Source of the DNA: a virus
DNA: 26,434 nt
IMG/VR virus record: IMGVR_UViG_3300037584_004532
Location: 1-26,434 of that record
Reading direction: 5' to 3' (one strand)
The notes under the pieces are model-generated. The model saw only the letters and a list, made by a program, of their open reading frames with translations. It did no database searches and was not told the DNA's origin. Of the stretch, positions 3 to 21,286 are shown in pieces; position 1 is the first letter of the stretch; each line of letters begins with the position of its first letter. A program made the translations under genes and the position numbers.

Positions 3-2450
3 ATATTTAAGAATTATGCTTATGTTCGAGATGGTAGTGGTCAATACCAATCTATCTATGGAGATAAGTTAAAAAAAGTTACATATTGGACAGAAGAAGA
101 TTTCAGAACTGGTCGTGTATTTGAATCAGATATACCTTTAGATACTCGTATTCTTTTAGATAGATATGAGGATTCGGATGAGCCGTCAAAAGACCATCGT
201 GAATTATTTTTTGATATTGAGGTAGAAGTTACAGATGGTTTTCCTGAACCATCAAAGGCAGCAAACAAAGTTACTTCGGTTGCTATGTATACAAAATACG
301 ATGAAAAATATCGTGTCTATGTTTTAGGTGAAGGTCAAGATAATATTAAAGATGGTGTTGATATTCGTTTTTACCAAACCGAAAGTCAATTATTACAAGA
401 GTTTTTAAAGTATTGGATAAATGTCCAACCAACTTGTGTTACAGGTTGGAATACAAATGGTTTTGATATTCCTTATCTATACAACCGAATAACAAAAGTT
501 TTAGGTGAGGAGTTTGCTAACGCCCTTTCACCAATACAAATCGTAAGATATAATCCAAATAAAAAGATGTATCGTATCGCTGGTGTAAGTTCATTAGATT
601 ATATGGATTTATATAGAAAGTTTACATATACTCAACAATCAAGTTATAGATTAGACCATATCGGAACTATCGAAGTTGGTATAGGTAAGGTTGAATATGA
701 AGGAACACTTGATGATTTATATAGGGATGATATTGATAAGTTTATTGAGTATAACTTAAATGATGTTGAGATTGTTAAGGCACTTGACCAAAAGTTCAAG
801 TTGTTAGACTTGGCTCGTGCTGTATCTCACTTGGGTAGAATACCTTATGAAGAGGTATATTTTAGTTCAAGGTATATCGAAGGTGCTATGCTAGTTTATC
901 TTCGTAGTTTAGGTTTAGTTGCTCCAAGTAAGTTACCTACTGCTAGTTACGATGGTTCAGAGGGTAGGTTTAGTGGTGCTTATGTAAAGTCACCAGTTCC
1001 TGGTTGTTACGATTGGGTGTTCGATTTAGATTTAACTTCTATGTATCCAAGCATTATTATGTCTCTGAATATGTCGCCTGAGACAAAGATAGGTAAGATA
1101 AATGGTTGGGATGCTGAAGAATTTATTAGAGGGGAAGATAAACATTATTCCGTAGAGAAGGATAAGAAAGTTATCAGAACCTTTACAAGTGGGGAACTCA
1201 AAGATTTCTTTGGGAAAAATCAAATATCCATTTCATCAAATGGAGTCTTGTATGACCTAAGTAAGAAAGGTGTTATACCGGCGATACTTGAGAAATGGTT
1301 TAATGAGAGAGTAGAGTATAGGAAATTAGCAAAGAAGTACGAAACCGAAGGTGACCAAGAATTACATGGTTACTTCAACAGAAGGCAGCTGGTACAAAAG
1401 ATTTTACTTAATAGTTTGTACGGAGTATTGGGCTTAACCGTATTTAGATTTTATGATATTGATAACGCTGAAGGGACAACCACCACTGGTCAGAAACTTA
1501 TTCAGTTTACAGAAAAGGTTACAAATAGTTATTATAATAAAATCTTAAAAACGGATAAAGATTATTGTATCTACACAGATACAGACTCGGTTTTCTATTC
1601 TGCTCTTCCACTTGTTAAAAATAGATTTCCAAAAGCTGATGTTAAAGATGAAGAGTTTATGACAGAACAAATCCTTGATATTGCTAGTGAGGTTCAAGAT
1701 TATATCAATAAGTCTTACAACTACTTCAGTAGTAGGTTCTTAAATATACAAGGTGACCATCGTTTTGAGATTAAACAAGAGATGATTGCTAAGGCTGCTT
1801 TTTGGGTTACCAAGAAAAGATATGGTCAATGGATTATTAATGATGGTGGAACACCTTGTGAAAAACTTGATGTTAAAGGTTTAGATATTGTCCGTAGTTC
1901 ATTTCCACCAGCATTTCGTGACTTTATGACTAAGGTTCTAAAAGCTATCCTTGCTAAAGTTCCCAAAGAAAGAATAGACGAGTTTATCCTTGAGTTTAAG
2001 GGTAATCTAAAAAATGAAGAGTTGGATAAGATTGCTCTTCCAACCGGCGTAAAGGGTATCCAAAAATACACCAAGAAAAAAACTAAAGGTGGATTTGGTG
2101 TTAATGGTAAAAGTATATTTACTGAGATGGAAAAGGGTGCTCCTGTTCATACGAAAGCTTCGGTTATTTACAATGACTTACTAAGATACTTCAATGCGAA
2201 TAATCACGAAGCAATATCAAATGGTAATAAAGTTCGTTGGGTTTATCTAAAAGAAAATCCACTTAAAATAGATGGACTTGCTTACAAAGGTTATGATGAT
2301 CCTAAACAAATCATAGATTTTATCAATCAGTATGTAGATAGAGACAAGTTATTTGATAAAGCCCTAAAGAAGAAGATACAGATGTTTTATGACGCTATGT
2401 CTTGGGATATGCCGGTTGATAAAAATAACTCAATTGAAAGGTTTTTTTGA
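3..2450 (+). CDS. 43: Family-B DNA polymerase, T4 gp43-like (5' partial)
   Basis: Replicative DNA polymerase with 3'-5' proofreading. The reading frame is open to the window edge, so the true start lies upstream; by comparison with T4 gp43 only about 40 N-terminal residues seem missing. Exonuclease motifs: Exo I Asp-Ile-Glu at 213-221, Exo II in TGWNTNGFDIPYLYNR, Exo III in YNLNDVEI. Polymerase motif A (DLTSMYPS) is at 1029-1052, motif B (KILLNSLYG) at 1398-1424, and motif C (YTDTDS, both catalytic Asp present) at 1572-1589. The protein ends NNSIERFF followed directly by TGA. In T4 and RB69 the extreme C-terminus of gp43 binds the sliding clamp, and N-x-x-I-x-x-F-F has the spacing of a PIP-like clamp-binding peptide, so this tail very likely docks on the clamp encoded at 3250. 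An internal ATG at 285 is not the start, because Exo I lies before it. Confidence 0.97.
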   Translation: MFKNYAYVRDGSGQYQSIYGDKLKKVTYWTEEDFRTGRVFESDIPLDTRILLDRYEDSDEPSKDHRELFFDIEVEVTDGFPEPSKAANKVTSVAMYTKYDEKYRVYVLGEGQDNIKDGVDIRFYQTESQLLQEFLKYWINVQPTCVTGWNTNGFDIPYLYNRITKVLGEEFANALSPIQIVRYNPNKKMYRIAGVSSLDYMDLYRKFTYTQQSSYRLDHIGTIEVGIGKVEYEGTLDDLYRDDIDKFIEYNLNDVEIVKALDQKFKLLDLARAVSHLGRIPYEEVYFSSRYIEGAMLVYLRSLGLVAPSKLPTASYDGSEGRFSGAYVKSPVPGCYDWVFDLDLTSMYPSIIMSLNMSPETKIGKINGWDAEEFIRGEDKHYSVEKDKKVIRTFTSGELKDFFGKNQISISSNGVLYDLSKKGVIPAILEKWFNERVEYRKLAKKYETEGDQELHGYFNRRQLVQKILLNSLYGVLGLTVFRFYDIDNAEGTTTTGQKLIQFTEKVTNSYYNKILKTDKDYCIYTDTDSVFYSALPLVKNRFPKADVKDEEFMTEQILDIASEVQDYINKSYNYFSSRFLNIQGDHRFEIKQEMIAKAAFWVTKKRYGQWIINDGGTPCEKLDVKGLDIVRSSFPPAFRDFMTKVLKAILAKVPKERIDEFILEFKGNLKNEELDKIALPTGVKGIQKYTKKKTKGGFGVNGKSIFTEMEKGAPVHTKASVIYNDLLRYFNANNHEAISNGNKVRWVYLKENPLKIDGLAYKGYDDPKQIIDFINQYVDRDKLFDKALKKKIQMFYDAMSWDMPVDKNNSIERFF
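2430..2448 (+). repeat. 19-bp direct repeat, copy 1 (polymerase tail)
   Basis: The sequence TCAATTGAAAGGTTTTTTT encodes SIERFF plus the T of the stop codon at the end of the polymerase. It recurs identically at 3173-3191 at the end of the methyltransferase, in the same reading frame. This copy also supplies the ribosome-binding site of the methyltransferase gene. The two copies bracket the methyltransferase with a 743-bp period. Confidence 0.95.
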
Positions 2451-3193
2451 TGTATAATTTAATTAAAGGTGATTGTTTAGAACTATTGGATGACATAGAT
2501 GACAATTCAATTGATATGATTGTATGTGATTTACCATACGGTCAGACTAAAAATAAATGGGATAGTGTTATTCCATTGGATGAATTATGGGAACATTATA
2601 AAAGGGTTATTAAAGATAATGGTTGTATAGCTTTATTTGGTCAAGGTATGTTTACAGCAGATTTGATGTATTCAAATAAAAAGTGGTGGAGATATAATTT
2701 GATTTGGGATAAAGTTTTAATCAATGGTCATTTAAATGCTAACAAGATGCCGTTGAGAAGCCACGAAGATATCGTTATATTTTATAATCAATTACCAACA
2801 TACAATCCACAAAAAGTTATGGGTAAAAAAAATCATACAATCGGTAGAGGGATGTTGAATAAAAATAATAATTATGGGAATTTCGTTTTAGTTGATAACA
2901 AGAATAAATTAGGGAATATGAAACATCCAAAATCCATATTATCATTTTCAAGGCCTCATTCATCCGTTATGAAACATCCTACCGAAAAATCTGTTGAGGT
3001 ATGTGAGTGGTTAATTAAATCATACACGAATAAAAATGAAGTGGTTTTAGATAATTGTATGGGAGCTGGCACGACAGGTCTTGCGTGTAGAAATACAAGT
3101 AGAAAATTTATAGGTATTGAGATGGATGATAAATATTTTAAAATTGCGGATGAGAGAATAAATAAAAAAACTTCAATTGAAAGGTTTTTTTAA
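2450..3193 (+). CDS. DNA methyltransferase (N6-adenine/N4-cytosine, beta-type order) with clamp-binding-like tail
   Basis: SAM-dependent DNA amino-methyltransferase of 247 residues. The catalytic motif DLPY is at residues 27-30 and the SAM-binding motif DNCMGAGTTG at 201-210. Catalytic motif before SAM motif is the order of the beta class (N6-A or N4-C). The target sequence cannot be read from the protein. The ATG overlaps the polymerase stop (TGATG). The ribosome-binding site is GAAAGG at 2436-2441, inside the polymerase's last codons. The last residues, KKTSIERFF, repeat the polymerase tail exactly over six residues, encoded by an identical 19-bp sequence, which suggests the enzyme is brought to the sliding clamp or replication fork. 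No restriction endonuclease gene adjoins it, so it is probably a solitary phage methylase for self-marking or evading host restriction (inference). Confidence 0.93.
   Translation: MYNLIKGDCLELLDDIDDNSIDMIVCDLPYGQTKNKWDSVIPLDELWEHYKRVIKDNGCIALFGQGMFTADLMYSNKKWWRYNLIWDKVLINGHLNANKMPLRSHEDIVIFYNQLPTYNPQKVMGKKNHTIGRGMLNKNNNYGNFVLVDNKNKLGNMKHPKSILSFSRPHSSVMKHPTEKSVEVCEWLIKSYTNKNEVVLDNCMGAGTTGLACRNTSRKFIGIEMDDKYFKIADERINKKTSIERFF
3173..3191 (+). repeat. 19-bp direct repeat, copy 2 (methyltransferase tail)
   Basis: Second exact copy of TCAATTGAAAGGTTTTTTT, again encoding SIERFF immediately before a stop (TAA here, TGA in copy 1). Recombination between the copies would remove the methyltransferase and leave an intact polymerase C-terminus directly upstream of the clamp promoter. 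Confidence 0.95.
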
Positions 3194-3194
3194 C

Positions 3195-3223
3195 TTGACT
3201 TTTACAAAAATAATCAGTAAATT
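3195..3223 (+). promoter_or_regulatory. Promoter for the clamp/clamp-loader operon
   Basis: TTGACT at 3195-3200, a 17-bp spacer, then TAAATT at 3218-3223. Transcription would start near 3230, leaving a leader of about 20 nt with GGAGA at 3236-3240 before the ATG at 3250. The same hexamers with the same spacing recur at 12157-12185, also in an intergenic gap, which strengthens both calls. The elements resemble a host sigma-70 type promoter more than the T4 middle or late motifs. Confidence 0.7.
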
Positions 3224-3249: not shown

Positions 3250-3972
3250 ATGAATAAAATCACATTAGATACCTTTATCCAAAAGTATAATCTTGGTGGT
3301 AGTATAAATTCAGTAAAGTGGGAGTCTAACGGCGACACACTTTCTACTCGTTTTATATCACCGGACAAAAGTCTTTTGGGTGAGTTATCACTAAGTAAAC
3401 AATCACTTCCAAACTTTGAGGTTGGTGTCTATGATACACCATTACTATCAAAGATGATGGGAACACTTGCTGATAAAGTTGATTTCAGTTTAACTAAATC
3501 ACCATCGGATGATGAACAACCAGTAGCATTTAACTTTACAGATGGTAAAATATCTGTTGATTATGTTCTTGCTGCTCTTGGTGTGATACCTGATGTACCA
3601 GAACTAAAGAACATTCCTGAGTTTACTACTCTTGTCAATATTGATACTCAATTTATCAATTCTTTTATTCGTGGTAAAGGTGCTTTATCCGATGTAGAAC
3701 ATTTTTCTATTCAACCGGCAGATGGTGGTGTAGAGTTCGTTATCGGTTTTAGTGACATTAACTCAAATCGTATCAGTATTAAAGTTCAAAGTGGTGCTGT
3801 AAAGTTAACTGAACCAATCGTCTTTAATGCTAACCTATTCAAAGAAGTTCTAAGTGCGAACAAAGAATGTTCCAAAGCAGTTCTTCAGGTTGCTGATAAA
3901 GGTCTTGCTCACATCGAGTTCAAGATAGATGACTTTAATGTTAAGTATTACTTAGTATCACAGCAGGTATAG
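3250..3972 (+). CDS. 45: Sliding clamp, T4 gp45-like
   Basis: DNA polymerase processivity factor of 240 residues, close to T4 gp45 (228). In the family three subunits form a ring around DNA that holds the polymerase and, in T4, also activates late transcription. Clamps carry no catalytic motif, so identification rests on overall character: the gp45-like N-terminus (MNKITLDTFIQKY), two acidic domains of alternating strands, length, and position directly before the clamp-loader ATPase. It has its own promoter (3195-3223) and a good GGAGA ribosome-binding site, consistent with the high dosage a ring protein needs. Two genes just upstream end in a likely clamp-binding peptide (SIERFF). The next gene starts two bases after this stop codon. 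Confidence 0.92.
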   Translation: MNKITLDTFIQKYNLGGSINSVKWESNGDTLSTRFISPDKSLLGELSLSKQSLPNFEVGVYDTPLLSKMMGTLADKVDFSLTKSPSDDEQPVAFNFTDGKISVDYVLAALGVIPDVPELKNIPEFTTLVNIDTQFINSFIRGKGALSDVEHFSIQPADGGVEFVIGFSDINSNRISIKVQSGAVKLTEPIVFNANLFKEVLSANKECSKAVLQVADKGLAHIEFKIDDFNVKYYLVSQQV

Positions 3973-3973
3973 T

Positions 3974-4882
3974 ATGAGTTCACACGGATTATGGGTAGAA
4001 AAGTATAGACCTCAAGATTTAACAACTTATGTTGGTAATGAAAACCTTAAAACTAAGGTTGAGAGGTTTATAGAAGAACAAAATGTTCCACATCTACTAC
4101 TGTATGGTAGAGCCGGTGGGGGTAAAACAACCCTTGCCAAGATTATCGTAAATTCAATTGAGTGTGACTATCTCTATATCAATGCCTCCGATGAGAGAAA
4201 TATTGATTTGGTTAGAGACAAACTAAAAAGCTTTGCTTCTTCGGTTGGTTTCAAACCAAACAAAATAGTAATCTTGGATGAGTCTGATTATCTCAATGTT
4301 AATTCAGCTCAACCGGCTCTTCGTAATCTTATGGAGACATTTTCTGCTCATTGTAGATTCATCTTAACTTGTAACTATGTTGAGAAGATTATCGACCCGA
4401 TTCAGAGTAGATGTCAAACTTACAAAATCATTCCACCATCAAAGAAAGATGTTGCTGTTCATGCCAAGTATATCTTGGAACAAGAGAACATCTCATTTGA
4501 TTTGGATGATTTGGCTTTGGTTGTAACTGCTGGTTATCCTGACTTAAGAAAAGTTATCAATGACCTACAAAGACAATCGGTAGATGGTAAGTTAAAGATA
4601 GACAAAGATGGTATGTTACATAACGAGTTTAAACTTCAGTTCTTAGAGATGATACAAAATGGTGTTGATTTAAGAACTATCCGTAAGTTTGTAGCTGATA
4701 GTAACTTTACAGATTATACAGAACTATATCGTTTCTTGTATGATGAGGTAGAAAACATATCAGTTGAAAAACTACCAGAAGTTATTGTTGACATATCAAA
4801 TGGTGCTTATCAAGATGTTCTATGTGTTGATAAAGAGATAAACTTTATTGCGACCATTTCTAATATTCTAAGGAGAGTATGA
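3974..4882 (+). CDS. 44: Clamp loader large subunit (AAA+ ATPase), T4 gp44-like
   Basis: ATPase that opens the sliding clamp and loads it at primer-template junctions, acting as a complex with gp62. The 302 residues compare with 319 in T4 gp44. The N-terminal WVEKYRP box, Walker A GRAGGGKT at residues 45-52, Walker B/DExx box ILDESD, and the SRC arginine-finger motif (QSRCQTY) are all visible and intact. The C-terminal part is helical, as in RFC/DnaX-type loaders. It follows the clamp gene by one base and overlaps the next gene at its stop (TGATG), so the four genes 45-44-zinc ribbon-62 form a translationally coupled unit. Confidence 0.95.
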   Translation: MSSHGLWVEKYRPQDLTTYVGNENLKTKVERFIEEQNVPHLLLYGRAGGGKTTLAKIIVNSIECDYLYINASDERNIDLVRDKLKSFASSVGFKPNKIVILDESDYLNVNSAQPALRNLMETFSAHCRFILTCNYVEKIIDPIQSRCQTYKIIPPSKKDVAVHAKYILEQENISFDLDDLALVVTAGYPDLRKVINDLQRQSVDGKLKIDKDGMLHNEFKLQFLEMIQNGVDLRTIRKFVADSNFTDYTELYRFLYDEVENISVEKLPEVIVDISNGAYQDVLCVDKEINFIATISNILRRV

Positions 4883-5124
4883 TGAAGATGAAACAAAGAA
4901 AACCATTACCCAAGCAACAAGTTCAAGTAGATTTGACAGAAGCAGATACAATGTCTTGTCAAAAGTGTGGAAATAAAATCTTTATACAAGGTTATATAAT
5001 AAAGAAGATTTCTGCTATACTTTCCCCAACCGGAAAGGAAGTAGTAGCACCTATACAAGTATTTAACTGTGGAAGTTGTGGTGAATTATTGCCAATGGGT
5101 GGGGAGATGGATGAACTTATTTAG
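4882..5124 (+). CDS. Small zinc-ribbon protein between clamp-loader genes, unknown function
   Basis: An 80-residue protein with two CxxC pairs (C26/C29 and C63/C66) about 33 residues apart, the usual layout of a zinc ribbon. The stretch between the pairs, with ISAILSPTGKE and PIQVF, looks beta-stranded. ATGs occur at 4879, 4882 and 4888. The strong AGGAG at 4871-4875 favours 4882, which also gives a TGATG overlap with gene 44. Its placement inside the 44-62 pair suggests a replisome-associated or transcription-related role, but this is inference. The gene for the clamp-loader small subunit starts inside its last codons. Confidence 0.75.
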   Translation: MKMKQRKPLPKQQVQVDLTEADTMSCQKCGNKIFIQGYIIKKISAILSPTGKEVVAPIQVFNCGSCGELLPMGGEMDELI

Positions 5125-5530
5125 TTGGATAGATGAGCTATTTGTCAAGAAAAGACCTTGGGATAGTTTTTCAGATGAAGACAAAAAGAAGTTTAGTCCA
5201 TTTATGGTAAATCGTTATCTAAGTATGAACAATGATTTTCTACCAATAGTGAATCACTTTCAGAAGCTAACGATTGAGGTAATGCCGATAGGAGTGGTAT
5301 ATAAGTTTTACTGCTCCTTATTACCAAACAAGAAAACATTCTTGAGATACCTTAGTGGAAAGAAAACCAAAACAAACGAAAAGGTTGTTCCTTTCATACA
5401 AGAGTATTTTGAGGTTAGCAAGTTACAGGCAAGTGAATACTATAACTTAATGACTAATGATGAGTTAAGGTTACTATTAAAGCAATATGGTAAAACAGAC
5501 AAAGAAATAAAAAAGATGGGTGTTAAATGA
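5111..5530 (+). CDS. 62: Clamp loader small subunit, T4 gp62-like
   Basis: A 139-residue protein matching the gp62 character: an early FSPFMVNRYLSMNNDFLP segment typical of gp62 in marine T4-like phages, an all-helical composition and a lysine-rich tail. It is shorter than T4 gp62 (187). In T4 one gp62 joins four gp44 subunits to make the clamp loader. An upstream in-frame ATG at 5069 exists, but it would overlap the zinc-ribbon gene by more than 50 bases. The ATG at 5111 has GGGGAG just before it (short spacing) and overlaps the previous gene by only 14 bases. Identification rests on the conserved segment and on gene order, as gp62 has no catalytic motif. Confidence 0.82.
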   Translation: MNLFSWIDELFVKKRPWDSFSDEDKKKFSPFMVNRYLSMNNDFLPIVNHFQKLTIEVMPIGVVYKFYCSLLPNKKTFLRYLSGKKTKTNEKVVPFIQEYFEVSKLQASEYYNLMTNDELRLLLKQYGKTDKEIKKMGVK

Positions 5531-8363: not shown

Positions 8364-8614
8364 TGGCAAGTATGAGAGATGATTTAATACAAGCAAGTAG
8401 ATTACACTTTGAAGCTCACATCGAAAAACACAGAATTAATGTAGAAAATTTATTAGACAATGGTGTTGGTGTTGCAGAACATCCTGATATTATGGATACG
8501 ATAGAAAAAGAACTAGCTATAATATCTGAATATGATGATAAGCTAAACGCACTAAAAAAATATTTTCCATTATATACTACATATAAAAAAAATAAAGAGG
8601 TTATAAATGGCTAA
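8363..8614 (+). CDS. Conserved small helical phage protein, unknown function
   Basis: An 83-residue, predominantly helical and charged protein. The blocks IEKHRINVENLLDNGVGVAEH and DTIEKELAIISEYDDKL resemble a small protein family I associate with T4-like marine phages; no function is known to me. Two long amphipathic helices joined by the glycine-rich GVGVAEHPD turn suggest a helical hairpin or coiled coil. It overlaps the previous stop (TAATG) and runs eight bases into the next glycosyltransferase gene. Confidence 0.7.
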   Translation: MASMRDDLIQASRLHFEAHIEKHRINVENLLDNGVGVAEHPDIMDTIEKELAIISEYDDKLNALKKYFPLYTTYKKNKEVING

Positions 8615-9968
8615 GAAAAAGATATTGTTAATGTCTGATGACTTACGGATGCATAGTGGAGTAGCTACTGTATCTAAAGACATTGTATTTGAGACATTAC
8701 ACCAATATGATTGGGTTCAGATGGGTGGAGCTATCAAGCATCCTGAAGCTGGAAAAGTTATCGACATGTCAGAACATCTTCAAAAAGATTTTGGTATAAA
8801 AGATGGATACTTGAGAATATATCCAGTTGATGGTTATGGTAACGAAGATTTACTTAGAGATGTTATTGCTATGGAAAAACCAGATGCTATACTTCACTAT
8901 ACAGATCCAAGATTTTGGATTTGGTTTTATAACATGGAAGCAGAAATTCGTAGAGATATTCCTATCTTTTATTACAATATATGGGATGACTTACCAGATC
9001 CACAATACAATACAAACTACTACAAGAGTTCTGATTTATTGATGGGTATATCAAAACAAACTTATGGAATCAATAAAAGATTATTACCTGATTATGAAGA
9101 TTGGCAAATAACTTATGTACCACATGGTATATCAGAAAGAAGATTTAACAAGGTAGAAGATGATAATGTTTCTTTGATTGATTTTAATTCTAAACATGGT
9201 GTTGCTGATAAGAAGTTTAAGATACTTTATAGTAATAGGAACATCAGAAGAAAACAACCTGGTGATGTTTTATTGGCATACAAATACTTTATGGATGGTT
9301 TAACACCTGAACAAAGAGAAGAGTGTGTATTAGTATTTCATTGTTCACCAGTTGATGATAACGGAACAGATTTACCAAGAGTTCATAAACATTTGTGTCC
9401 TGAATACGATGTACGTTTTACATATGAAACAGATGGACGACCTTTTAATGATAATGAAATGAATTTACTTTTTAACTCAGCTGATGTTTATATTAACTTG
9501 GCTAGTAATGAGGGATTTGGATTAGGTAGTGCTGAAGCTCTTACCGTTGGAACACCAATTATTGTTAATGTTACAGGTGGACTACAAGATCAATGTGGGT
9601 TCAAGAAAGATGGTAAGTTTTTAACACCTGAAGATTATGTTGAGTTGGGTTCTAATCATAAAGGAACTTATACAGAACATGGAGAATGGGTATTTCCTGT
9701 TTATCCAACTAATAGTTCACTTCAAGGTTCACCTATGACACCTTATATCTTTGATGATAGATGTCAGCCAGAAGATGCTGCTATTCAGTTAAAGAAACTA
9801 TACGACTTAGGTAGAGAAGAAAGAAAAAGACTTGGTTCATTAGGAACTGAGTTCTGTAAAAAAAATCTAATGACATCAAAAGCTATGGGACAAGAGTTTA
9901 TTAATTCTATGGATGGAGCATTTGATAATTGGAAACCAAAACCAAAATACACGATGGAGGCAGTATGA
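8607..9968 (+). CDS. GT-B glycosyltransferase, GT4-like
   Basis: A 453-residue glycosyltransferase of the two-Rossmann (GT-B) fold. The C-terminal half carries the nucleotide-sugar-binding pattern of family 4: FKILYSNRNIRRKQPGDVL at the domain hinge, then SADVYINLASNEGFGLGSAEA with an intact EX7E motif (E-GFGLGSA-E), followed by GTPIIVNVTGG. The N-terminal start KKILLMSDDLRMHSGVATVS contains the short glycine turn expected for acceptor binding. No membrane segment or signal peptide, so it is cytoplasmic. AGAGG lies upstream of the ATG, and the gene overlaps the preceding one by eight bases. It is the first of two adjacent GT4-like enzymes. Acceptor and sugar donor are unknown. Confidence 0.9.
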   Translation: MAKKKILLMSDDLRMHSGVATVSKDIVFETLHQYDWVQMGGAIKHPEAGKVIDMSEHLQKDFGIKDGYLRIYPVDGYGNEDLLRDVIAMEKPDAILHYTDPRFWIWFYNMEAEIRRDIPIFYYNIWDDLPDPQYNTNYYKSSDLLMGISKQTYGINKRLLPDYEDWQITYVPHGISERRFNKVEDDNVSLIDFNSKHGVADKKFKILYSNRNIRRKQPGDVLLAYKYFMDGLTPEQREECVLVFHCSPVDDNGTDLPRVHKHLCPEYDVRFTYETDGRPFNDNEMNLLFNSADVYINLASNEGFGLGSAEALTVGTPIIVNVTGGLQDQCGFKKDGKFLTPEDYVELGSNHKGTYTEHGEWVFPVYPTNSSLQGSPMTPYIFDDRCQPEDAAIQLKKLYDLGREERKRLGSLGTEFCKKNLMTSKAMGQEFINSMDGAFDNWKPKPKYTMEAV

Positions 9969-11320
9969 AACGCTCGGTAGTTATGATTGCACCTTTTAAT
10001 ACCCGTAGTGGTTATGGTGACCATGCTCGTTCAATCTATTATTCTATCATGGATAGGGATGATTTAGACATTAAATGTTTAGATGTTAAGTGGGGTTCAA
10101 CACCTAGAAATCACTTACGACCTGAAGTCAAAAGACATCAGAGGTTGTTAAATAGTTTCACAACACAGGATAAAATAACAAGTCAACCTGATATTGTTAT
10201 TGATATTAGAATACCTAATGAGTTTATACAAGGTGGTAAAGTTAATATCGGTATAACTGCTGGTGTGGAAACTGATGTCGTATCTCCTCAATTTTTAGAT
10301 GGTATGAATAAGATGAATCTTAACATAGTACCATCTAAATTTACAGCAAACACATTTAATAAATGTACATTTGATAAAATGCAAGATGCTCCTAACGGAC
10401 AAAGACAAAAAGTCGGTGAGATAAAAAATGAAAAACCTATCAAGGTTTTGTTTGAAGGTGTAGATACGGATGTTTATTTTCCAAAAGAAAAACATCAGTT
10501 AGAAAAGAAGCTTTATGAAGAGTTGGATGAACTTATCAAAGAGGAGTTTGCTTATCTTCATGTTGGACAATGGGGAAAACAAGGTTTCGGAGAGGATAGA
10601 AAAAACATCGGTGTTATGATTAAATCTTTCTTAAAAGCTTTTGCTAATATTACTAATCCACCCGCACTTGTTCTTAAAACTAACGGTGCTAACTTTAGTG
10701 TTCTTGACAAGGTTGATATAAAGAAAAGAATACAAGAAGTTAAAGATATGTTTAAGGGAGTTGAGTTACCTAATATTTATTTAATACATGGTGATTTTAC
10801 TATTCAAGAAATGTCAACACTTTATAATCATAAAAAGATTGGTGCTTTTATTACTTGTACACACGGTGAAGGTTTTGGACGACCAATGTTAGAAGCTAGT
10901 TGTTGTGATTTACCTGTAATTGCTAGTAAGTGGAGTGGTCATCTTGACTTTCTTACAGACGCTGAGTCTATGTTAATTGACGGGTTTATTAAACCAGTTC
11001 CTAAATCAGTTCTATGGGATCCTATTATTATAGAACCATCTAAATGGTTTGATGTAAATGAAGCTGATGTGGTTAGAAAGATTAGAACTTTTCATAAGAA
11101 AAGAAAACTAATACAAAAGAAAGCTAATCGTCTAGGTAAGAAAAACAGAAGAGAGTTTTCATTAGAAGCTATGTCAAAAGAGTTTAATAAGATTATAGAT
11201 GATGTATTAAAATCAGTTCCACAACCTATTAGTTTGAAACTACCTAAACTTAAAAAAGTTGGTGGTGAATCTCCACAATCAGCAAAGATAAAACTACCTA
11301 AATTAAAGAAGGTGACATAA
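9965..11320 (+). CDS. GT-B glycosyltransferase, GT4-like, with repeated basic tail
   Basis: A 451-residue GT-B glycosyltransferase. The donor-site block ITCTHGEGFGRPMLEASCCDLPVIAS holds an intact EX7E motif, and HVGQWGKQGFGEDRKNIGVM marks the start of the C-terminal domain. An in-frame ATG at 9929 exists, but the start at 9965 is preferred because GGAGG (9956-9960) precedes it and it forms an ATGA overlap with the previous gene. The last 30 residues are an unusual low-complexity basic tail with two exact copies of KLPKLKKV (residues 425-432 and 443-450) linked by GGESPQSAKI. Such a tail could bind acidic lipid head groups, nucleic acid or a partner protein (inference). It acts in the cytoplasm; acceptor unknown. 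Confidence 0.9.
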   Translation: MKRSVVMIAPFNTRSGYGDHARSIYYSIMDRDDLDIKCLDVKWGSTPRNHLRPEVKRHQRLLNSFTTQDKITSQPDIVIDIRIPNEFIQGGKVNIGITAGVETDVVSPQFLDGMNKMNLNIVPSKFTANTFNKCTFDKMQDAPNGQRQKVGEIKNEKPIKVLFEGVDTDVYFPKEKHQLEKKLYEELDELIKEEFAYLHVGQWGKQGFGEDRKNIGVMIKSFLKAFANITNPPALVLKTNGANFSVLDKVDIKKRIQEVKDMFKGVELPNIYLIHGDFTIQEMSTLYNHKKIGAFITCTHGEGFGRPMLEASCCDLPVIASKWSGHLDFLTDAESMLIDGFIKPVPKSVLWDPIIIEPSKWFDVNEADVVRKIRTFHKKRKLIQKKANRLGKKNRREFSLEAMSKEFNKIIDDVLKSVPQPISLKLPKLKKVGGESPQSAKIKLPKLKKVT

Positions 11321-11736
11321 TGGATGATATGATACTAAAGGTAAAATGTCCAAATAACACAAAAGAATGTACTGTTGTTGGTGGTGAGATAATGGAGTCA
11401 ATGGTTTTATTGGGCGATGAAGAACAGAATATGCAGTGCTTAGCCTGTGGTTATGCTTCTAACAAAACTATGAAAACACATATAAAACCGTTTCCTGATG
11501 ATTTTAAAGAAGTATGTGTTGAAACAAATAAGGGTAGGTATTGGGCACCATCCGTTTTTACAACAGAAAATTATATGGTTGTTCCTTTAGTAGATGATGG
11601 TTTGAAATGGAGAGTTTATGCTCAAGCTGATCCTGCTACGGAAGTGATAATGCCTACATTTTCGGATGCTTTTAAAATGGTAGAAAAATTGGAGAAAGTT
11701 CTTGGCGAGCAGATACAACAACAAGCGAATAGTTAA
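11320..11736 (+). CDS. Hypothetical protein with zinc-ribbon-like N-terminus
   Basis: A 138-residue protein of unknown function. Four cysteines in the N-terminal third (C10, C17, and C40/C43 as CLACG) could bind zinc. The remainder, containing GRYWAPSVFTTENYMVVP and KWRVYAQADPATEVIMP, looks like a small alpha/beta domain. The ATG overlaps the preceding stop by one base (TAATG). The ribosome-binding site and TTG start of the next gene lie inside its last codons. I do not recognise the family. Its place between glycosyltransferases and another unknown gene gives little functional hint. Confidence 0.65.
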   Translation: MDDMILKVKCPNNTKECTVVGGEIMESMVLLGDEEQNMQCLACGYASNKTMKTHIKPFPDDFKEVCVETNKGRYWAPSVFTTENYMVVPLVDDGLKWRVYAQADPATEVIMPTFSDAFKMVEKLEKVLGEQIQQQANS

Positions 11737-12160
11737 ATCTGTTCAAACAATAGGTCGAGGTAGATTATTACCTGGTATGATAATTACATTTAATTACTCA
11801 GAACCAGGTGTTATGGATCCTAGACCTATTCTACTTTATCTAAATACAAATAAAGTAACTAAAAACATAGAAGGGTTGAATATAAACTATCTTAATCCAA
11901 CTAAGTTAAAAAAATTATTTAAGGTTGCTGACTTTAAAAAAACAGAAACGGATGAGGTAGAAAACTTAATCGGTTTAAAAGAAGAATACTTTAGATTACA
12001 GATTGCTAATCCAAAGAAAAGAAGTGCTATGACACCAAAAAGATTCTATGGTGATATTATATCAGCTGATAAATATTTTAAGGAAGCATACAGGTCATAT
12101 AAACTTACCAAATTAACATCCTTAAAGGTTACACAGATAAATACACAATTTATTACTTGA
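11702..12160 (+). CDS. Conserved phage hypothetical protein, TTG start
   Basis: A 152-residue basic protein. Features: GRLLPGMIITFNYSEP near the N-terminus, a DPRPILLYL strand, GLNINYLNP, and a C-terminal YRSYKLTKLTSLKV. This arrangement (P-G-M-I/V-T-F-x-Y, then PLV/I-L, then GLN-x-x-YL, then a YR-x-Y tail) recalls an uncharacterised protein family in many T4-like phages. TTG at 11702 is the best start: GGAG (11691-11694) sits 7 nt upstream, and the first in-frame ATG (11777) would cut into the PGMIITF block. It overlaps the previous gene by 35 bases and ends just before the operon promoter at 12157, so it closes a transcription unit. No terminator hairpin follows. Confidence 0.7.
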   Translation: MASRYNNKRIVKSVQTIGRGRLLPGMIITFNYSEPGVMDPRPILLYLNTNKVTKNIEGLNINYLNPTKLKKLFKVADFKKTETDEVENLIGLKEEYFRLQIANPKKRSAMTPKRFYGDIISADKYFKEAYRSYKLTKLTSLKVTQINTQFIT

Positions 12161-12185
12161 CTTTATCAACATTTTATGGTAAATT
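12157..12185 (+). promoter_or_regulatory. Promoter of the glycan operon (leaderless transcript predicted)
   Basis: TTGACT at 12157-12162, 17-bp spacer, TAAATT at 12180-12185, matching the promoter at 3195 in both hexamers and spacing. The -10 ends only six bases before the ATG at 12192, so transcription should start at or next to the A of the ATG. No Shine-Dalgarno-like sequence lies between. Confidence 0.7.
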
Positions 12186-12191
12186 ACACCA

Positions 12192-12827
12192 ATGAAAATT
12201 AGTTATTCTATATTAACCCACAACGAAACTACCACTCTTGAAAAGCTACTAAAGTTTTTAATTAAGTATAAACAACCACAAGATGAGATAGTTATCCTCG
12301 ATGATTATTCAGACAATGAAAAAACAAAAGCTATCTTAGATTTCTATGTATCCACCGAGAACATAGTATTTGAGCAAAGAAATCTTTTGGAAGACTTTGG
12401 TTCACAAAAAAACTATCTAAAGAATATGTGCAGTGGTGACTATAGTTTTAACTTGGATGCTGATGAGATGATTTCATCTTGGTTTATGGCAGACATCCAC
12501 GAGATACTTGAAGGTAATCCGGTTGATTTAATTTACTTACCGAGAGTAAATACCGTAAAGGGAATAACGGAACAACATTGTAGAATGTATGGGTATACAA
12601 TAAATGAAAGAGGTTGGATAAACTATCCTGATTGGCAAGGTCGTATTTTTCGTAACCGACCAAACATTCGTTGGGAAAAACCAGTTCATGAGCACCTTGT
12701 CGGTTTTCAAACTTATGCTCACCTACCAACAGAACATAAGTATTCTATTACCCACCCAAAAACAATAGAAAGACAAGTAGAACAGAATAAGTTTTATAAT
12801 GAAGAAATAAGTGGGATGAAGAAATGA
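12192..12827 (+). CDS. GT-A glycosyltransferase, family 2 (WaaE/KdtX-like)
   Basis: A 211-residue inverting GT-A glycosyltransferase. The start KISYSILTHNE, the VILDDYSDN block, and LDADE with the metal/nucleotide-binding D89-A-D91 are classic GT2. The segment DWQGRIFRN..NIRWEKPVHEHLVG resembles the WaaE/TPR-associated subgroup, which often transfers to LPS core heptose. The ATG lies about six bases after the promoter -10 with no ribosome-binding site, implying leaderless translation; the nearby upstream ATG at 12176 is out of frame. First gene of the long glycan operon, overlapping the next by ATGA. Confidence 0.9.
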   Translation: MKISYSILTHNETTTLEKLLKFLIKYKQPQDEIVILDDYSDNEKTKAILDFYVSTENIVFEQRNLLEDFGSQKNYLKNMCSGDYSFNLDADEMISSWFMADIHEILEGNPVDLIYLPRVNTVKGITEQHCRMYGYTINERGWINYPDWQGRIFRNRPNIRWEKPVHEHLVGFQTYAHLPTEHKYSITHPKTIERQVEQNKFYNEEISGMKK

Positions 12828-13720
12828 AAATATTAGTTGCTGGTGGTGTTGGATTTGTGGGTACTAACTTAATAAAAAGATTATTAAAAGATGGGCATGA
12901 AGTATCATCAGTAGATAACTATTCTACTGGATTTAAAGAAAATCATCAAGATGGTTGTACATATTATGAGCATGATTTGTCAAGTAAACATACACTTGGA
13001 ATATATGTAGACCATGAAACTTATCCATCTTGGAGAGATAATGAATTTGATTTAATATTTAATGTTGCTGCTTTAGCTAGGATACAGCCATCATTATCAG
13101 ATCCAGTTAAGGCTATTAGTAATAACTTTAATAGTGCTCTTCATGTATTAGAATGGGCTAGAAAAAACAATACACCTGTAACATTTTCTGGTTCAAGTAC
13201 ACTACATCATGGTTTATGGGGTAGTCCGTATGCTTGGTCTAAATATGCTGGTGAACAATTATGTGAATTATATAATAAAGTTTATGACTTACCAACTGCT
13301 ATATGTAGATTTTACAATGTATATGGAGAACATCAATTGGAAGATGGTGCTTATGCTACAGTTGTTGGTATTTTTGAAAAACAATATCGTAATGGTAAAC
13401 CACTAACTGTTACCGGTGATGGGGAACAAAGACGAGATTTTACTCATATAGACGACATCGTTGATGGGTTAGTTCGATGTGGTCTTAGTTTATTAACTGA
13501 TGCTAAAGTATCCAATGGACAAGCTTATGAATTAGGTAGAGGTTTAAATTTTTCTATTAACGAGATAGCTAAAATGTTTGATGGTGCAGAGATTGAATAT
13601 ATTCCAGCAAGAAGAGGTGAATATCCGTTTACTTTAGCTGATTATACAAAGGCAAAAGAGGAACTAGGATGGATACCTAGTTTAAATATTAAAGATTACA
13701 TAAAAGGAGTTATCAGTTGA
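12824..13720 (+). CDS. NAD-dependent nucleotide-sugar epimerase/dehydratase (extended SDR, GalE-like)
   Basis: A 298-residue extended short-chain dehydrogenase/reductase acting on a nucleotide sugar. The NAD-binding GGVGFVG (GxxGxxG) is at residues 7-13, followed by an Asp (VDNYSTG) typical of NAD-dependent members. The catalytic Ser lies in SGSSTLHHG, and the Tyr-x-x-x-Lys pair in SPYAWSKYAGE. The downstream TGDGEQRRDFTHIDDIVDG block is the sugar-nucleotide-binding region of UDP-glucose 4-epimerase relatives. Reaction probably 4-epimerisation or 4,6-dehydration of a UDP- or dTDP-sugar; the substrate cannot be fixed. Linked by ATGA to the upstream transferase and by a TTG/TGA overlap to the next gene. 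Confidence 0.9.
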   Translation: MKILVAGGVGFVGTNLIKRLLKDGHEVSSVDNYSTGFKENHQDGCTYYEHDLSSKHTLGIYVDHETYPSWRDNEFDLIFNVAALARIQPSLSDPVKAISNNFNSALHVLEWARKNNTPVTFSGSSTLHHGLWGSPYAWSKYAGEQLCELYNKVYDLPTAICRFYNVYGEHQLEDGAYATVVGIFEKQYRNGKPLTVTGDGEQRRDFTHIDDIVDGLVRCGLSLLTDAKVSNGQAYELGRGLNFSINEIAKMFDGAEIEYIPARRGEYPFTLADYTKAKEELGWIPSLNIKDYIKGVIS

Positions 13721-14730
13721 AGGTAGCACTATTTTGGGATTCTGCGATTAATATAGATTCTTACTATGTTAAAAATGGAGAAGCTTTTAGTTATTGGACA
13801 GATAAACCATATAGCTTTCATCACTCTATGTCATCAAAATGTTTTCCGGTAATTCATAATTATCAATGGTTTGGTGAAGGGAGTAGTTTTTTAAATTTAA
13901 GTGAATGGGTTGATAGGGGAATAGATTTTCCTGAATTGGATGTTGATTTGATATTTTATGCTTGTGAGAGACAAGGATTAGATAATCATTGTTGGGATGA
14001 TTATAGTGTAGAGAGGATAAAGAAAAGATACCCTAATGCTAAAGTTATTGGTTCTTTAAAGGAAGTTAATGTTAGGGAACATAGAGTACAAAATAGATTT
14101 AAGTTTTTAAAATCATGTGATGACTTACATGCTGAATGTCCTAGAAATGAAGAAACAATGAGAGTTTTTGGTCCAATAGAAAAATATACTGGTATGAAAA
14201 TTAAATTCTTTAAACAACCACAGAATATTGATTATTATTATGAGAATTTTTATTCTAATGAAAAAATCAATGGTATATATGCTTACATTCCAAATCCATT
14301 ACATCGTAGAGGTAGAACTTATGAGTTTGCTAATTATATAGGGGATAAGTATGATTTACCTGTAAAAACTAAACCACTAAAAGATGGTCAGGACTTTGCT
14401 CATTTAGGTCATAAAGAATTTATAGATTTGTGGAGTCCTTACCTGTACCATTTTAATTTAGATCCCACTACAATACATCCTGGTACACAAGTTGTACAAG
14501 TTGCTATGGTCGGTTCAATTAATATAGGTGGATTAAATCATCACCATCACATATATTATCCAGAAACTGCTACTATTGATGAGGATGTTTTAGAAAAAAA
14601 GATAGTTGAATATATAAATAATCCTAAAAAAAGATTTGAAGTTATACAGAATGCTTGGACAAAGGTCAATGAGTTAAATAGTTTTAACTCGGTATATAAC
14701 GAAATACAGAAACATTGGGGAACATTATAA
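13717..14730 (+). CDS. Glycosyltransferase-like protein of uncertain family, TTG start
   Basis: A 337-residue soluble protein. No canonical glycosyltransferase motif (EX7E or a clear DxD) is visible. The overall plan could fit a GT-B fold: an N-terminal Rossmann-like KVALFWDSA, a central VIGSLKEVN strand, then a C-terminal half with YIPNPLHRRGRTYE and HPGTQVVQVAMVGSINIGG, where the last resembles a donor-binding loop. A run of four histidines (GLNHHHHIYY) follows. The TTG start at 13717 is supported by AGGAG at 13705-13709 and by overlap with the previous stop (TTGA). Its neighbours are sugar enzymes, which is the main reason for suspecting a transferase. Function otherwise unknown. Confidence 0.6.
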   Translation: MKVALFWDSAINIDSYYVKNGEAFSYWTDKPYSFHHSMSSKCFPVIHNYQWFGEGSSFLNLSEWVDRGIDFPELDVDLIFYACERQGLDNHCWDDYSVERIKKRYPNAKVIGSLKEVNVREHRVQNRFKFLKSCDDLHAECPRNEETMRVFGPIEKYTGMKIKFFKQPQNIDYYYENFYSNEKINGIYAYIPNPLHRRGRTYEFANYIGDKYDLPVKTKPLKDGQDFAHLGHKEFIDLWSPYLYHFNLDPTTIHPGTQVVQVAMVGSINIGGLNHHHHIYYPETATIDEDVLEKKIVEYINNPKKRFEVIQNAWTKVNELNSFNSVYNEIQKHWGTL

Positions 14731-16262
14731 TGGATGTTTTATTTATAAATCCAGGTAGCGCTAAAGATGTTTATCAAGGATTATCAACTGATTATTCTGG
14801 TATAGGAACACCATATTGGTTATTACTACTCTCACAATCTTGTAGATCACAAGGATATGAAGTTGGTGTTTTAGATGTATTAGCAGAAAAACTTTTATTA
14901 GACGATGCTATAACAAGAATTAAAGACCTCAATCCTAGACTTATCACATTTTGTGTTTATGGAGAAAATGTAAATTCAGGTACTACTCAGATGAGTGGTG
15001 CTGTGAGACTAGCTGATTTGTTAAAAGAGTGTGGAGTTGAGATACCAATATCATTTGTAGGCTCTCATGTTCAAGCATTACCTTACAAAGTATTAGATGA
15101 AGAGCCAAACATTGATATTATATTTACTAATGAAGGTGTGTATTCCCTTTGGAATATTTTAAAATTAGATGATTTGACAGATATAGATAAATTAAAGACT
15201 ATAAGGGGTATTGGTTTTATTAAAGATGATAAACCATTTTTAACTAAACCTGAAAAGATAGTTCCACAAGAAAGAATGGATATTGATTTACCAGGTTATG
15301 CTTGGGATTTATTACCTTATGATAAAAAACCATTTGATTTGTATCGTTCACCAATGTGGCATGGAGAATATGATCACGATAAAAGAACACCTTATGCTGC
15401 TTTATACACTTCATTAGGTTGTTTATTTCAATGTGAGTTTTGTATGATTAACATCCTCAACCGAGATGATTTGGATGAAGTGGGTGTTGCTGGTAATTAT
15501 AATAAAATGAGATTTTGGTCACCTGAATTCATAATTAAAGAGTTTGATAAGCTAGTTGAGATGGGTGTTGAGACTATTAGAATTGCTGATGAAATGTTTT
15601 TACTGAATCCAAAATACTATGTACCATTGACAGAAATGTTATCAAAAAGACCATATGCTGATAGATTAAGGATGTGGGCTTATTCAAGAGTTGATACCAT
15701 AAGAAGACCTGGTGTATTAAAATTATTAAGAAAAGCTGGTATTAAATGGCTATGTCTTGGAATAGAAAGTGCTGATAAGAATGTTAGATTAGAAGTTTCT
15801 AAAGGTAAATTTGAAGATGTGAATATCGTAGATGTTGTTAATCAAATTCATGATGCTGATATAGGTATAATAGCAAATTATATGTTTGGATTACCAGGAG
15901 ATACTCACGAAACAATGCAGAAAACTTTAGATTTGAGTTTGGAACTAAACACAATAGCTTGGAATGCTTATGCTGCTATGCCTTTACCTGGTAGTCAGTT
16001 ATATAAAAATGCTGTTGATGCTGGTATTGATTTACCAGAAGATTATGCTGGGTATTCGTTTCATGCTTATACTACAAAACCATTACCTACTGAAGATTTG
16101 ACACCTGAAGAAATATTAAGATTTAGAGATAAGGCTTATTTAATTTATCACAACGATAAAAAGTTTTTAGAAAAGGTTAAAAATACTTATGGTGATATAG
16201 CTGTTGATAATATAATTAAAAACACTAAAGTTAAATTAAAAAGAAAAATTTTAGGGGATTAA
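14730..16262 (+). CDS. Cobalamin-binding radical SAM enzyme
   Basis: A 510-residue protein. The N-terminal ~170 residues form a B12-binding-like Rossmann domain (VLFINPGS start, then FVGSHVQALPYKVL and NEGVYSLW, the usual GG-H...GEgE pattern in variant form). The radical SAM core follows, with the [4Fe-4S] motif CLFQCEFC (C231, C235, C238), a glycine-rich LGIESADKNV block and YMFGLPGDTHE. Relatives methylate unactivated carbon or phosphorus, or rearrange carbon skeletons; sugar C-methylation is the reading that best fits the operon (inference). The ATG at 14730 (TAATG overlap) is preferred over an in-frame TTG at 14715. The enzyme needs cobalamin from the host or its surroundings. Confidence 0.9.
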   Translation: MDVLFINPGSAKDVYQGLSTDYSGIGTPYWLLLLSQSCRSQGYEVGVLDVLAEKLLLDDAITRIKDLNPRLITFCVYGENVNSGTTQMSGAVRLADLLKECGVEIPISFVGSHVQALPYKVLDEEPNIDIIFTNEGVYSLWNILKLDDLTDIDKLKTIRGIGFIKDDKPFLTKPEKIVPQERMDIDLPGYAWDLLPYDKKPFDLYRSPMWHGEYDHDKRTPYAALYTSLGCLFQCEFCMINILNRDDLDEVGVAGNYNKMRFWSPEFIIKEFDKLVEMGVETIRIADEMFLLNPKYYVPLTEMLSKRPYADRLRMWAYSRVDTIRRPGVLKLLRKAGIKWLCLGIESADKNVRLEVSKGKFEDVNIVDVVNQIHDADIGIIANYMFGLPGDTHETMQKTLDLSLELNTIAWNAYAAMPLPGSQLYKNAVDAGIDLPEDYAGYSFHAYTTKPLPTEDLTPEEILRFRDKAYLIYHNDKKFLEKVKNTYGDIAVDNIIKNTKVKLKRKILGD

Positions 16263-16263
16263 A

Positions 16264-16935
16264 GTGACTTTACCAAAAAACTTTGTTAAACAGACTTATG
16301 ATAGACCAAATCAAAAAGGGTATGCTACTGCAGATACTTATTTTTTAGAAAGAGTTCTTGAAATAATAGATGAATATAAGATAAACAGAATAGTAGAATG
16401 TGGAACTTTTGAAGGTAGGTCAACTACCGAATTGTCTTTTTTGGTTGATGAGATAATAGGTATAGAAATTAAAGAAGAGTATGTTAGAAAAACTATCGAT
16501 AGATTAACAGATAATTCAAGAAGTAATTTTGAAATTATTAATGGCAGTTCACCACAAGTCTTATCCGAACTAACAACGACATTAGATTTTAGTAATACAA
16601 TTTTCTTTTTAGATGCTCATGTTAGTGCTGCTGGTATGGGTGGTGTAGCAGATTCATATTGGCCAATTAATGATGAAATAAAAGTTATTCCTAAAAATAA
16701 AGGTATAATTATGGTTCATGATATATATGTTCCTGGATGGGGTGATTTGGGTATACACGATTCTAATAGGTTAGGTTATGATACATATGTAGTTAATGGT
16801 GTAAAACAAAGGTTTGATTATGAGTTCATCAAAGATTCTTTGACAGATTGGAGTCCAATACATAGAATAGAATATAATAGAGGTGATAAATCTTCTGGTG
16901 ATTCTAGGGGTATTGGAATTATTTTTAACAATTAA
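16264..16935 (+). CDS. Class I SAM-dependent methyltransferase (sugar O-methyltransferase-like)
   Basis: A 223-residue methyltransferase. SAM-binding motif I is IVECGTFEGRST and the acidic post-I residue lies in IIGIEIKEEY. The later FFLDAHVSAAG and MVHDIYVPGWGD blocks contain Asp/His residues placed like the metal-binding sites of TylF/MycF-type sugar O-methyltransferases. Substrate unknown; a sugar hydroxyl is likely from context. GTG at 16264 is supported by AGGGG (16253-16257) with a 6-nt spacing. It begins one base after the preceding stop and is followed by a 15-base gap holding AGGAGA for the transketolase gene. Confidence 0.82.
   Translation: MTLPKNFVKQTYDRPNQKGYATADTYFLERVLEIIDEYKINRIVECGTFEGRSTTELSFLVDEIIGIEIKEEYVRKTIDRLTDNSRSNFEIINGSSPQVLSELTTTLDFSNTIFFLDAHVSAAGMGGVADSYWPINDEIKVIPKNKGIIMVHDIYVPGWGDLGIHDSNRLGYDTYVVNGVKQRFDYEFIKDSLTDWSPIHRIEYNRGDKSSGDSRGIGIIFNN
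16840..16868 (+). promoter_or_regulatory. Possible internal promoter before the transketolase genes
   Basis: TTGACA (16840-16845), 17-bp spacer, TAGAAT (16863-16868), inside the end of the methyltransferase gene and about 80 bases before the transketolase start. Good match to a housekeeping promoter, but coding context and AT-richness make coincidence possible. Confidence 0.25.
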
Positions 16936-16950
16936 TAGTAGGAGATAGAA

Positions 16951-17718
16951 ATGTCTAATGATATATTAAAAAACAAAGCAAAATCAGTTAGGAAAACTGT
17001 TTTTGAATTTAAAACTAGAGATGGTATAGGACATTTACATAGTTCATTATCACCTGTAGATGTTTTGGTTTCATTATTTTATGATAAAGAAACCATTTTT
17101 AACCATAATGAAGATATTGTAATTTTCGGTAAGGCTCACGGTTCGCCATCAATATATCCAATTTTAGCAGATTTAGGTTATTTTCCAAAAGACGAATTGG
17201 AAAAGTATTGCAGACCTGGTGGTATTTTAAGATTACATTCTGATTGGACAATACCTGGTTGTCACTTTGTGGGTGGTTCATTAGGTAACGGTATAGGTTA
17301 CGCTTCAGGTTTAGCTCATGGTAATAGAGATAAAAACATTTACTTGATAATGGGTGATGCTGAATTATATGAAGGATCTGTTTGGGAAAGTTTAATGTAT
17401 ATTTCACATCATAACTTGACCAATCTTAGAATAATTGTGGATAGAAATGGACTAGGTACTATTGGTGAAACAGAGAAGATGTTAAAATTAGAACCTTTAA
17501 AAGATAAGTTTAAATCATTTATCGATGATGTAGTTGAAATAGATGGACATGACTATGATAGTTTAAGAGATGTATTTTCAAAACAAAACCCACAGGTTAT
17601 TATTGCTAAAACCACAAAGGGTAAAGGTGTAAGTTATATGGAAGGAAAGTGGCAATATCACACGATTGTTCCATCAAGTCAAGAAGATATTAAAATAGGT
17701 TTAGAGGAATTATCATGA
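16951..17718 (+). CDS. Transketolase, N-terminal (thiamine diphosphate-binding) subunit
   Basis: A 255-residue protein equal to the first half of a transketolase. The thiamine diphosphate/Mg motif begins at G135-D136 (GDAELYEGSVWE) and ends with the Asn of VDRNGLG, about 30 residues on as expected. His residues in GHLHSS and GKAHGS correspond to active-site histidines of the family. AGGAGA precedes the ATG. The second half is encoded by the next gene, with ATGA overlap, so the pair forms a split transketolase. Split forms are common in sugar and antibiotic biosynthesis clusters. It would move a two-carbon ketol unit, making sedoheptulose 7-phosphate or adding a branch to a nucleotide sugar. 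Confidence 0.93.
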   Translation: MSNDILKNKAKSVRKTVFEFKTRDGIGHLHSSLSPVDVLVSLFYDKETIFNHNEDIVIFGKAHGSPSIYPILADLGYFPKDELEKYCRPGGILRLHSDWTIPGCHFVGGSLGNGIGYASGLAHGNRDKNIYLIMGDAELYEGSVWESLMYISHHNLTNLRIIVDRNGLGTIGETEKMLKLEPLKDKFKSFIDDVVEIDGHDYDSLRDVFSKQNPQVIIAKTTKGKGVSYMEGKWQYHTIVPSSQEDIKIGLEELS

Positions 17719-21252: not shown

Positions 21253-21253
21253 T

Positions 21254-21267
21254 TATATTTATATATA
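21254..21267. promoter_or_regulatory. AT-rich intergenic element shared with 8119-8132
   Basis: Same 14 bases as in the 8119 gap, within a 34-base gene-free gap, and again with TATAAATA on the minus strand (21256-21263). It may mark a promoter or simply low-complexity spacer. The gap also holds AGAGG, the ribosome-binding site of the next gene. Confidence 0.25.
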
Positions 21268-21286
21268 TATAAACAAGAGGTTATAA

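Follow-up and report, generated by a model that had tools for sequence, protein, structure and literature searches.

Phage morons, discussed together with boundary-sequence homology, are extra genes lying between two genes that adjoin in relatives. In animals, DNMT1 is a DNA methyltransferase tethered to the sliding clamp PCNA through a PIP box (a PCNA-interacting motif). T4-type phages are reported to contain mobile regulatory cassettes called PeSLs, said to consist of promoter and stem-loop modules (work attributed to Arbiol 2010 and Comeau 2014). Free-standing homing endonucleases are also known from T4-like phages as accessory genes that are inserted between conserved genes and are gained and lost with co-conversion of their flanks (PMC2988022). 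The T4 DNA polymerase binds the clamp gp45 through its last residues (SLDFLF, a single-turn helix) and deletion of the last six prevents association with the clamp (PMC12746103); the PIP consensus is Qxxhxxaa (PMC3012046). Here we analyze a linear viral fragment of 26,434 bp from IMG/VR (record IMGVR_UViG_3300037584_004532, called the window below), where a solitary DNA methyltransferase gene lies between the genes for a T4-type DNA polymerase and a sliding clamp and ends in a copy of the last codons of the polymerase.

This locus shares features with each of these systems. As with gp43 of T4 and RB69, the polymerase is a family B enzyme of the T4 type with a terminal hxxaa core (NxxIxxFF), and a clamp with the PCNA fold is encoded next door. 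Unlike gp43, the DNA coding for the terminal peptide is here also appended to unrelated enzymes at the adjoining slot, and we found no report of such an arrangement. As with DNMT1, a DNA methyltransferase has a probable clamp-binding motif, which is putative here, but the enzymes are of bacterial type, reside in phages, and acquired the motif by recombination with the polymerase gene. PeSLs are likewise short conserved elements between genes that are said to promote the swapping of accessory genes in T4-like phages. By contrast, the element in the window consists of coding sequence, and the junction, though it has a promoter, yielded no terminator-like stem-loop, so the element does not qualify as a PeSL. 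Similar to homing endonuclease insertions, cassettes of the window's type lie between conserved genes and are gained and lost with co-converted flanks, except that they contain no nuclease and their cargo is methyltransferases. Like a moron, the methyltransferase gene is inserted between genes that adjoin in relatives; no terminator was found for it, and it overlaps the upstream stop codon. We consider it very likely that this is a methyltransferase slot in which the inserted genes carry polymerase-tail DNA; the encoded tail is a candidate clamp-binding peptide. The features of the locus are as follows.

3..2450, + strand: gp43-like DNA polymerase (family B, T4 type), truncated at its 5' end by the window edge, C-terminus ...DKNNSIERFF
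2430..2448, + strand: repeat copy 1, the last 18 polymerase sense bases plus the T of the polymerase stop
2448..2452, + strand: TGATG, polymerase stop overlapping the methyltransferase start
2450..3193, + strand: solitary N6_N4 DNA methyltransferase, 247 amino acids
3162..3202, + strand: 41 bp shared without mismatch with the empty DKKTSIERFF-lineage junction, including 11 bp past copy 2
3167..3190, + strand: appended tail KTSIERFF of the methyltransferase
3173..3191, + strand: repeat copy 2, end of the methyltransferase
3195..3223, + strand: predicted clamp promoter TTGACT-17-TAAATT, beginning right after copy 2
3250..3972, + strand: sliding clamp (gp45 position, PCNA fold)

The original prediction, made from the letters of the window, was that the methyltransferase gene lies between identical 19-bp, in-frame repeats at the ends of the polymerase and methyltransferase genes. 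We confirmed this. The sequence TCAATTGAAAGGTTTTTTT is present at 2430-2448 and 3173-3191 with no mismatches, and these are the sole two sites in the window even when three mismatches are allowed. Each copy consists of 18 sense bases (the SIERFF codons) and the T of a stop (TGA in the polymerase and TAA in the methyltransferase), and ungapped similarity reaches 27/30 over 2419-2448 / 3162-3191. Among the 561 gene-end pairs in the window, the runner-up to this pair shares 10 terminal sense bases. Given that both proteins end in SIERFF, the probability of identical codons by chance is approximately 0.007 with the codon usage of the window phage. The repeat thus reflects relatedness at the level of DNA and not convergence of the peptides. 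Synonymous sites are more conserved in the last six polymerase codons (0.89) than in the preceding codons (0.65), a difference to which we gave no weight because codon bias (TTT) accounts for part of it. Independent evolution of SIERFF by the methyltransferase, as a convergent clamp-binding peptide, would be in keeping with the clamp motifs at the C-terminus of some relatives outside this site. However, beyond the codon identity, the shared sequence runs into the upstream and non-coding flank and empty sites exist. Convergence is extremely improbable and is refuted by DNA-level identity of copy 2 to the junction of another lineage, described below.

To place the window among its relatives (L numbers), IMG/VR was searched with the polymerase (80 relatives), the clamp (80 loci, partly overlapping with the former), and a junction pattern (101 stretches). 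Three scans had cassette genes as queries and a fourth had the copy-1 junction plus a following TGATG, which biases these queries, but all three cassette types described here were also recovered by cargo-neutral polymerase, clamp, or clamp-side junction searches. There were 68 distinct related junctions with both flanks, of which 62 are empty with one repeat copy each and 6 are filled, not counting the window and two contigs with the right half of a filled site (L132, L133). Empty junctions have a polymerase ending in FF-stop, approximately 18-70 bp, and then the clamp start. The closest relatives of the window, L003 and L004 (98% polymerase and 98.75% clamp identity), are empty and have no copy of its methyltransferase. 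L088 and L089 are filled with the window's methyltransferase (99.9-100% identity) and L060 with one that is 98.5% identical. L018 and L103 are filled with a Dam enzyme (PF05869) unrelated to the window's methyltransferase, and L231 with an NPPY methyltransferase (phrog_799), the type also seen in L132 and L133. Three unrelated gene types therefore occupy the slot, every one a DNA methyltransferase with one gene per cassette. In the near-isogenic pair L134 (empty) and L135 (Dam-filled, and the same contig as L103) there is a 491 bp difference, with 1 mismatch in 4,776 bp of right flank and 2 in 290 bp of left flank.

These results agree with the expectation that relatives without the methyltransferase would carry a single repeat copy and that other genes would be found at the same repeat; both the Dam and NPPY enzymes end on polymerase-tail DNA. 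Empty sites predominate, rather than every relative carrying the methyltransferase. An assembly artefact was rejected as the origin of the filled sites, which come from several independent data sets with each type in at least two contigs. The proposed clean gain and loss of an accessory gene by recombination at the 3' end of the polymerase gene is supported, including by the near-isogenic pair, and we are confident that genes are gained and lost by recombination at the polymerase/clamp slot.

Outside these junctions, the Pelagibacter phage Mosig (L002:6378-6609) has a gene annotated as an adenine methyltransferase that overlaps the gp43 stop and is possibly an independent case of the slot. This gene is cut by the end of the record and, as joining the two ends of the record gives no single frame, its tail is unreadable. 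In cyanophages S-RIM12 and Syn19 the gene after gp43 encodes a small hypothetical protein and is followed by a UvsX-type recombination gene, neither being a methyltransferase or a clamp.

The cassettes move horizontally, since they are 97-99% identical between phages where the flanking genes are only 70-90% identical. Nucleotide identity between the window and L060 is 98.5% for the methyltransferase versus 82% for the polymerase and 90% for the clamp, and between L018 and L103 it is 99.4% for Dam versus 80.5% and 85.6%, respectively. For the third (NPPY) type, the cassette is 96.7% identical and the clamp 69.6%. All three types are found in two or more lineages of polymerase or clamp. Copy 1 of the window is that of its own lineage (GATAAAAATAACTCAATTG, common to L003 and L004). 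Copy 2 is foreign and not a duplicate of copy 1, because the 41 bp that include it match exactly the empty junction found in the DKKTSIERFF lineage (L025-L032, L051, L053, and others). Judged from the sequence, copy 2 arrived with the cassette from another lineage. This bears on a local origin of the repeats, where a single illegitimate or transposon-like integration of the methyltransferase duplicated 19 bp of target. Direct repeats of approximately 19-30 bp do flank the insert, as such an event would leave. However, the match of copy 2 and its flank is to another lineage, the insert is the gene only without a transposase or recombinase, and repeat content tracks the host lineage. We rejected target-site duplication for the window on the first of these grounds, and consider local duplication of either kind very unlikely as an account of the repeats.

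The Dam cassettes share the upstream part of the window's copy 2, and the Arg/Lys codon within their repeat matches the host polymerase. The Dam tail of L018, TCAATTGAAAAG, has its upstream part as in L103 and AAG as in the L018 polymerase, and that of L103, TCAATTGAAAGG, has AGG as in the L103 polymerase. For this seemingly hybrid repeat in L018 a crossover inside the repeat looks like the simplest reading, with a point change being possible, and among the filled sites L018 gives the best support for exchange through nothing more than the 19-bp repeat. Other sites differ. L060 has copy 2 and the promoter of a VSIERFF lineage between TIEKFF-lineage flanks, and L231 has copy 2 and the promoter of a TIEKFF lineage, though the empty sites of its own clade are without such a promoter. 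Since L060 and L231 exchanged the clamp promoter besides the repeat, homologous recombination over longer flanks also works. As read from these junctions, the left-hand crossover lies in the 3' end of the polymerase gene, and the right-hand one varies in position.

Cassettes might also be copied in by break repair after a free-standing endonuclease, encoded elsewhere in the genome, cuts empty junctions. A palindrome, TTCAATTGAA, lies within the repeat core and could be seen as a target. Yet a nuclease is absent from all three cassettes, CAATTG occurs 8 times in the window versus 8-11 expected and thus shows no frequency bias, and the palindrome is broken (CAATCG) in the VSIERFF-lineage junctions. 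We rejected CAATTG as a special nuclease target on the basis of the last two observations, and homing in this form is unlikely.

The left joint of the cassettes is conserved. The methyltransferase ATG (2450-2452) overlaps the polymerase TGA (2448-2450), and the resulting TGATG recurs in each of the six further filled junctions whose left end can be read. At every such junction we found TTTTTTTGATG, where empty junctions have TAA, TAG, or TGATT. The original prediction was that copy 1 also provides the ribosome-binding site of the methyltransferase. The AGG of copy 1 sits 8 nt upstream of the ATG and could serve as this site in the window, but at the candidate position TIEKFF-lineage relatives with a filled site show AAAAG alone. 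The conserved feature is therefore the stop/start coupling. On the right, the clamp promoter is untouched by the insertion in the window, as had been proposed. A -35/-10 pair with 17-nt spacing is present in all 25 distinct TTGAC-carrying junction sequences examined, and promoter-like matches within the methyltransferase gene are hardly above chance. In the clade of L040, L041, L056, and L061 the polymerase-clamp junction is 18-20 bp without a clamp promoter. L231 is of the same clade and acquired a promoter along with its cassette; insertion may rewire clamp transcription.

A point missed in the original prediction is that the repeat probably encodes a clamp-binding peptide, so that insertion adds this peptide to the cargo enzyme. 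The tail of the window's methyltransferase is predicted to be disordered (residues 240-247, with a predicted local distance difference test score, pLDDT, <50) and lies behind the last core helix (227-238). Homologues of all three cassette enzymes outside this site have no such tail; it was added to the captured enzymes. Every polymerase of the close clade ends in I/V/L-x-x-F-F, and in more distant relatives SFGK or NF comes after a KFF core. The polymerase is the sole protein with an [ILVM]xxFF end among approximately 318 open reading frames (ORFs) of two large related contigs. NNSIERFF of the polymerase fits the PIP core and KTSIERFF fits hxxaa, the Q position excepted. In two of the three cassette types the tail agrees with hxxaa, the core of the T4 motif for clamp binding (PIP/CIP). 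Since the polymerase's C-terminal peptide is what the copied DNA encodes, usually in frame, the enzymes would gain a flexible clamp-type end.

Clamp motifs of another kind occur in the wider family. QLxLF is the bacterial beta-clamp motif. Among members of the window methyltransferase's family outside this site, 6/159 end in QLxLF versus 0/1,530 other ORFs, and 20/159 end in LF versus 14/1,530. Methyltransferases of the N6_N4 type from phages and bacteria (L093, L094, L095, L101, L349, L374, L397) end in QLTLF, QLRLF, or QMKLF. It is possible that clamp-tethering of solitary methyltransferases is general, and the QLxLF-type ends offer a lead beyond phages with their own clamp. In the literature searched, coverage of which was incomplete, we found no report of a phage or bacterial DNA methyltransferase with a clamp-binding motif.

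Several observations weigh against a repeat-driven slot with a clamp-binding tail. L060 and L231 imported the promoter along with the cassette, so the crossover does not always fall in the repeat. The window enzyme has K at the PIP glutamine position, and the tail of the third cassette type (NEKFF / NKKFF; PNEKFF) is without the hydrophobic residue of the PIP core. Copy 2 of L060 is one base out of frame (2100-2144, in an A run), with the enzyme ending in FQSKGFFD without the motif; this frameshift may be a real mutation or slip or a homopolymer sequencing error. Also, the LF/QLxLF enrichment treats related sequences as independent, making p-values indicative only, and QLxLF is rare even in the family (6/159). 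An alternative is that genes do come and go at the slot and the tail is a functionless, neutral scar of 3'-end recombination. The out-of-frame tail of L060 and the incomplete motif of the third cassette are what such a scar would predict, and the repeat needs no explanation beyond the one at the DNA level. Set against this, all three cassette founders are in frame onto FF-stop (approximately 1 in 27 if the frame were random), all cargo found is DNA methyltransferases, and some family members outside the site bear the bacterial clamp motif at the same place. We rate the neutral scar at a little under an even chance. A tail that works as a clamp tether is, from these motif matches, a serious candidate that also stops just short of even. 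Because all three cargo types are DNA methyltransferases, a functional link to the replisome, or an early anti-restriction need, is favored over random capture. No cognate restriction endonuclease lies beside the methyltransferase, the neighbors being the polymerase and clamp at every filled site.

In the explanation that we favor, the polymerase/clamp junction is a gene slot in a family of marine T4-like phages, and homologous recombination from phage to phage brings solitary methyltransferase genes into it and removes them again. Recombination on the left uses the polymerase gene's conserved 3' end and on the right either the cassette's own copy of that end or the clamp promoter and clamp gene. 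The cassette is [GATG...methyltransferase...polymerase-tail DNA]; the TGATG overlap would let it be read as part of the polymerase operon, and it re-creates the DNA ahead of the clamp promoter so that clean loss is possible. The copied tail, usually in frame, gives the enzyme a flexible (N/K)xxIxxFF-type end. This end would most likely bind the phage's own sliding clamp, and the enzyme may methylate freshly replicated DNA close behind the fork, for example as protection from restriction by the host. Tentatively, and with less than even confidence, we suggest that the insertion site itself donates a targeting peptide. A gene recombining into the slot would gain a clamp-binding tail in frame and become a client of the replisome, and the slot would be kept for this reason. 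Here a natural slot is seen both empty and filled, with three cargo types that are unrelated yet share one function, and this makes the gain and loss of genes in T4-like phages directly testable. If the tail works, recombination would have a simple means of equipping captured enzymes with a localization signal, and the locus would be a phage example of DNA methylation coupled to replication.

The gene assignments at the locus come from profile and structure comparisons. The window polymerase is a family B enzyme with polymerase and exonuclease domains and T4-type relatives; it matches PF00136 (1.2e-37), PF03104 (1.4e-22), and phrog_262 (1e-194, covering to the last residue), and RB69 gp43 is its top PDB match (8e-76). 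The methyltransferase matches PF01555 (5.8e-28) and phrog_67 (3e-69), and its nearest fold match is CcrM (E 1.4e-17). It is a beta-class N6/N4 DNA methyltransferase in that its DPPY-type motif (DLPYG, motif IV), near the N-terminus, precedes the FxGxG-type motif I (DNCMGAGTTG), near the C-terminus. The window clamp has no Pfam or PHROG match by sequence. Its model (pLDDT 86) matched PCNA chains in Foldseek (E ~1e-12), and VIA-align of the model against archaeal PCNA gave Z 20.3 and a root-mean-square deviation of 2.8 over 222 residues, a full-length PCNA fold that bears out the earlier assignment of this gene as the clamp. Among the fold-search matches listed, PCNA chains fill the listing and gp45 itself does not appear. 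Two clamp loader genes follow.

3974..4882, + strand: clamp loader large subunit (gp44-like), phrog_168 1e-77
5069..5530, + strand: clamp loader small subunit (gp62-like), PF16790 2e-6 and phrog_225 2e-17

Further along the window, 8607-26434 holds a long series of genes that, from their translations only, resemble sugar-nucleotide and glycosyl enzymes in this T4-like phage fragment. They include epimerases, a transketolase-like pair, a radical-SAM protein, and kinase- and glycosyltransferase-like ORFs. In L018, an ORF at 120-983 that is like the C-terminal part of a TonB-dependent outer-membrane receptor lies directly upstream of the phage polymerase. Lastly, several Dam relatives in viral contigs (L104-L109, L111) are preceded by GTTAGCGGTAGTTTATT-like sequence and end in TTACCGCTAACG, resembling integron-type gene cassettes.

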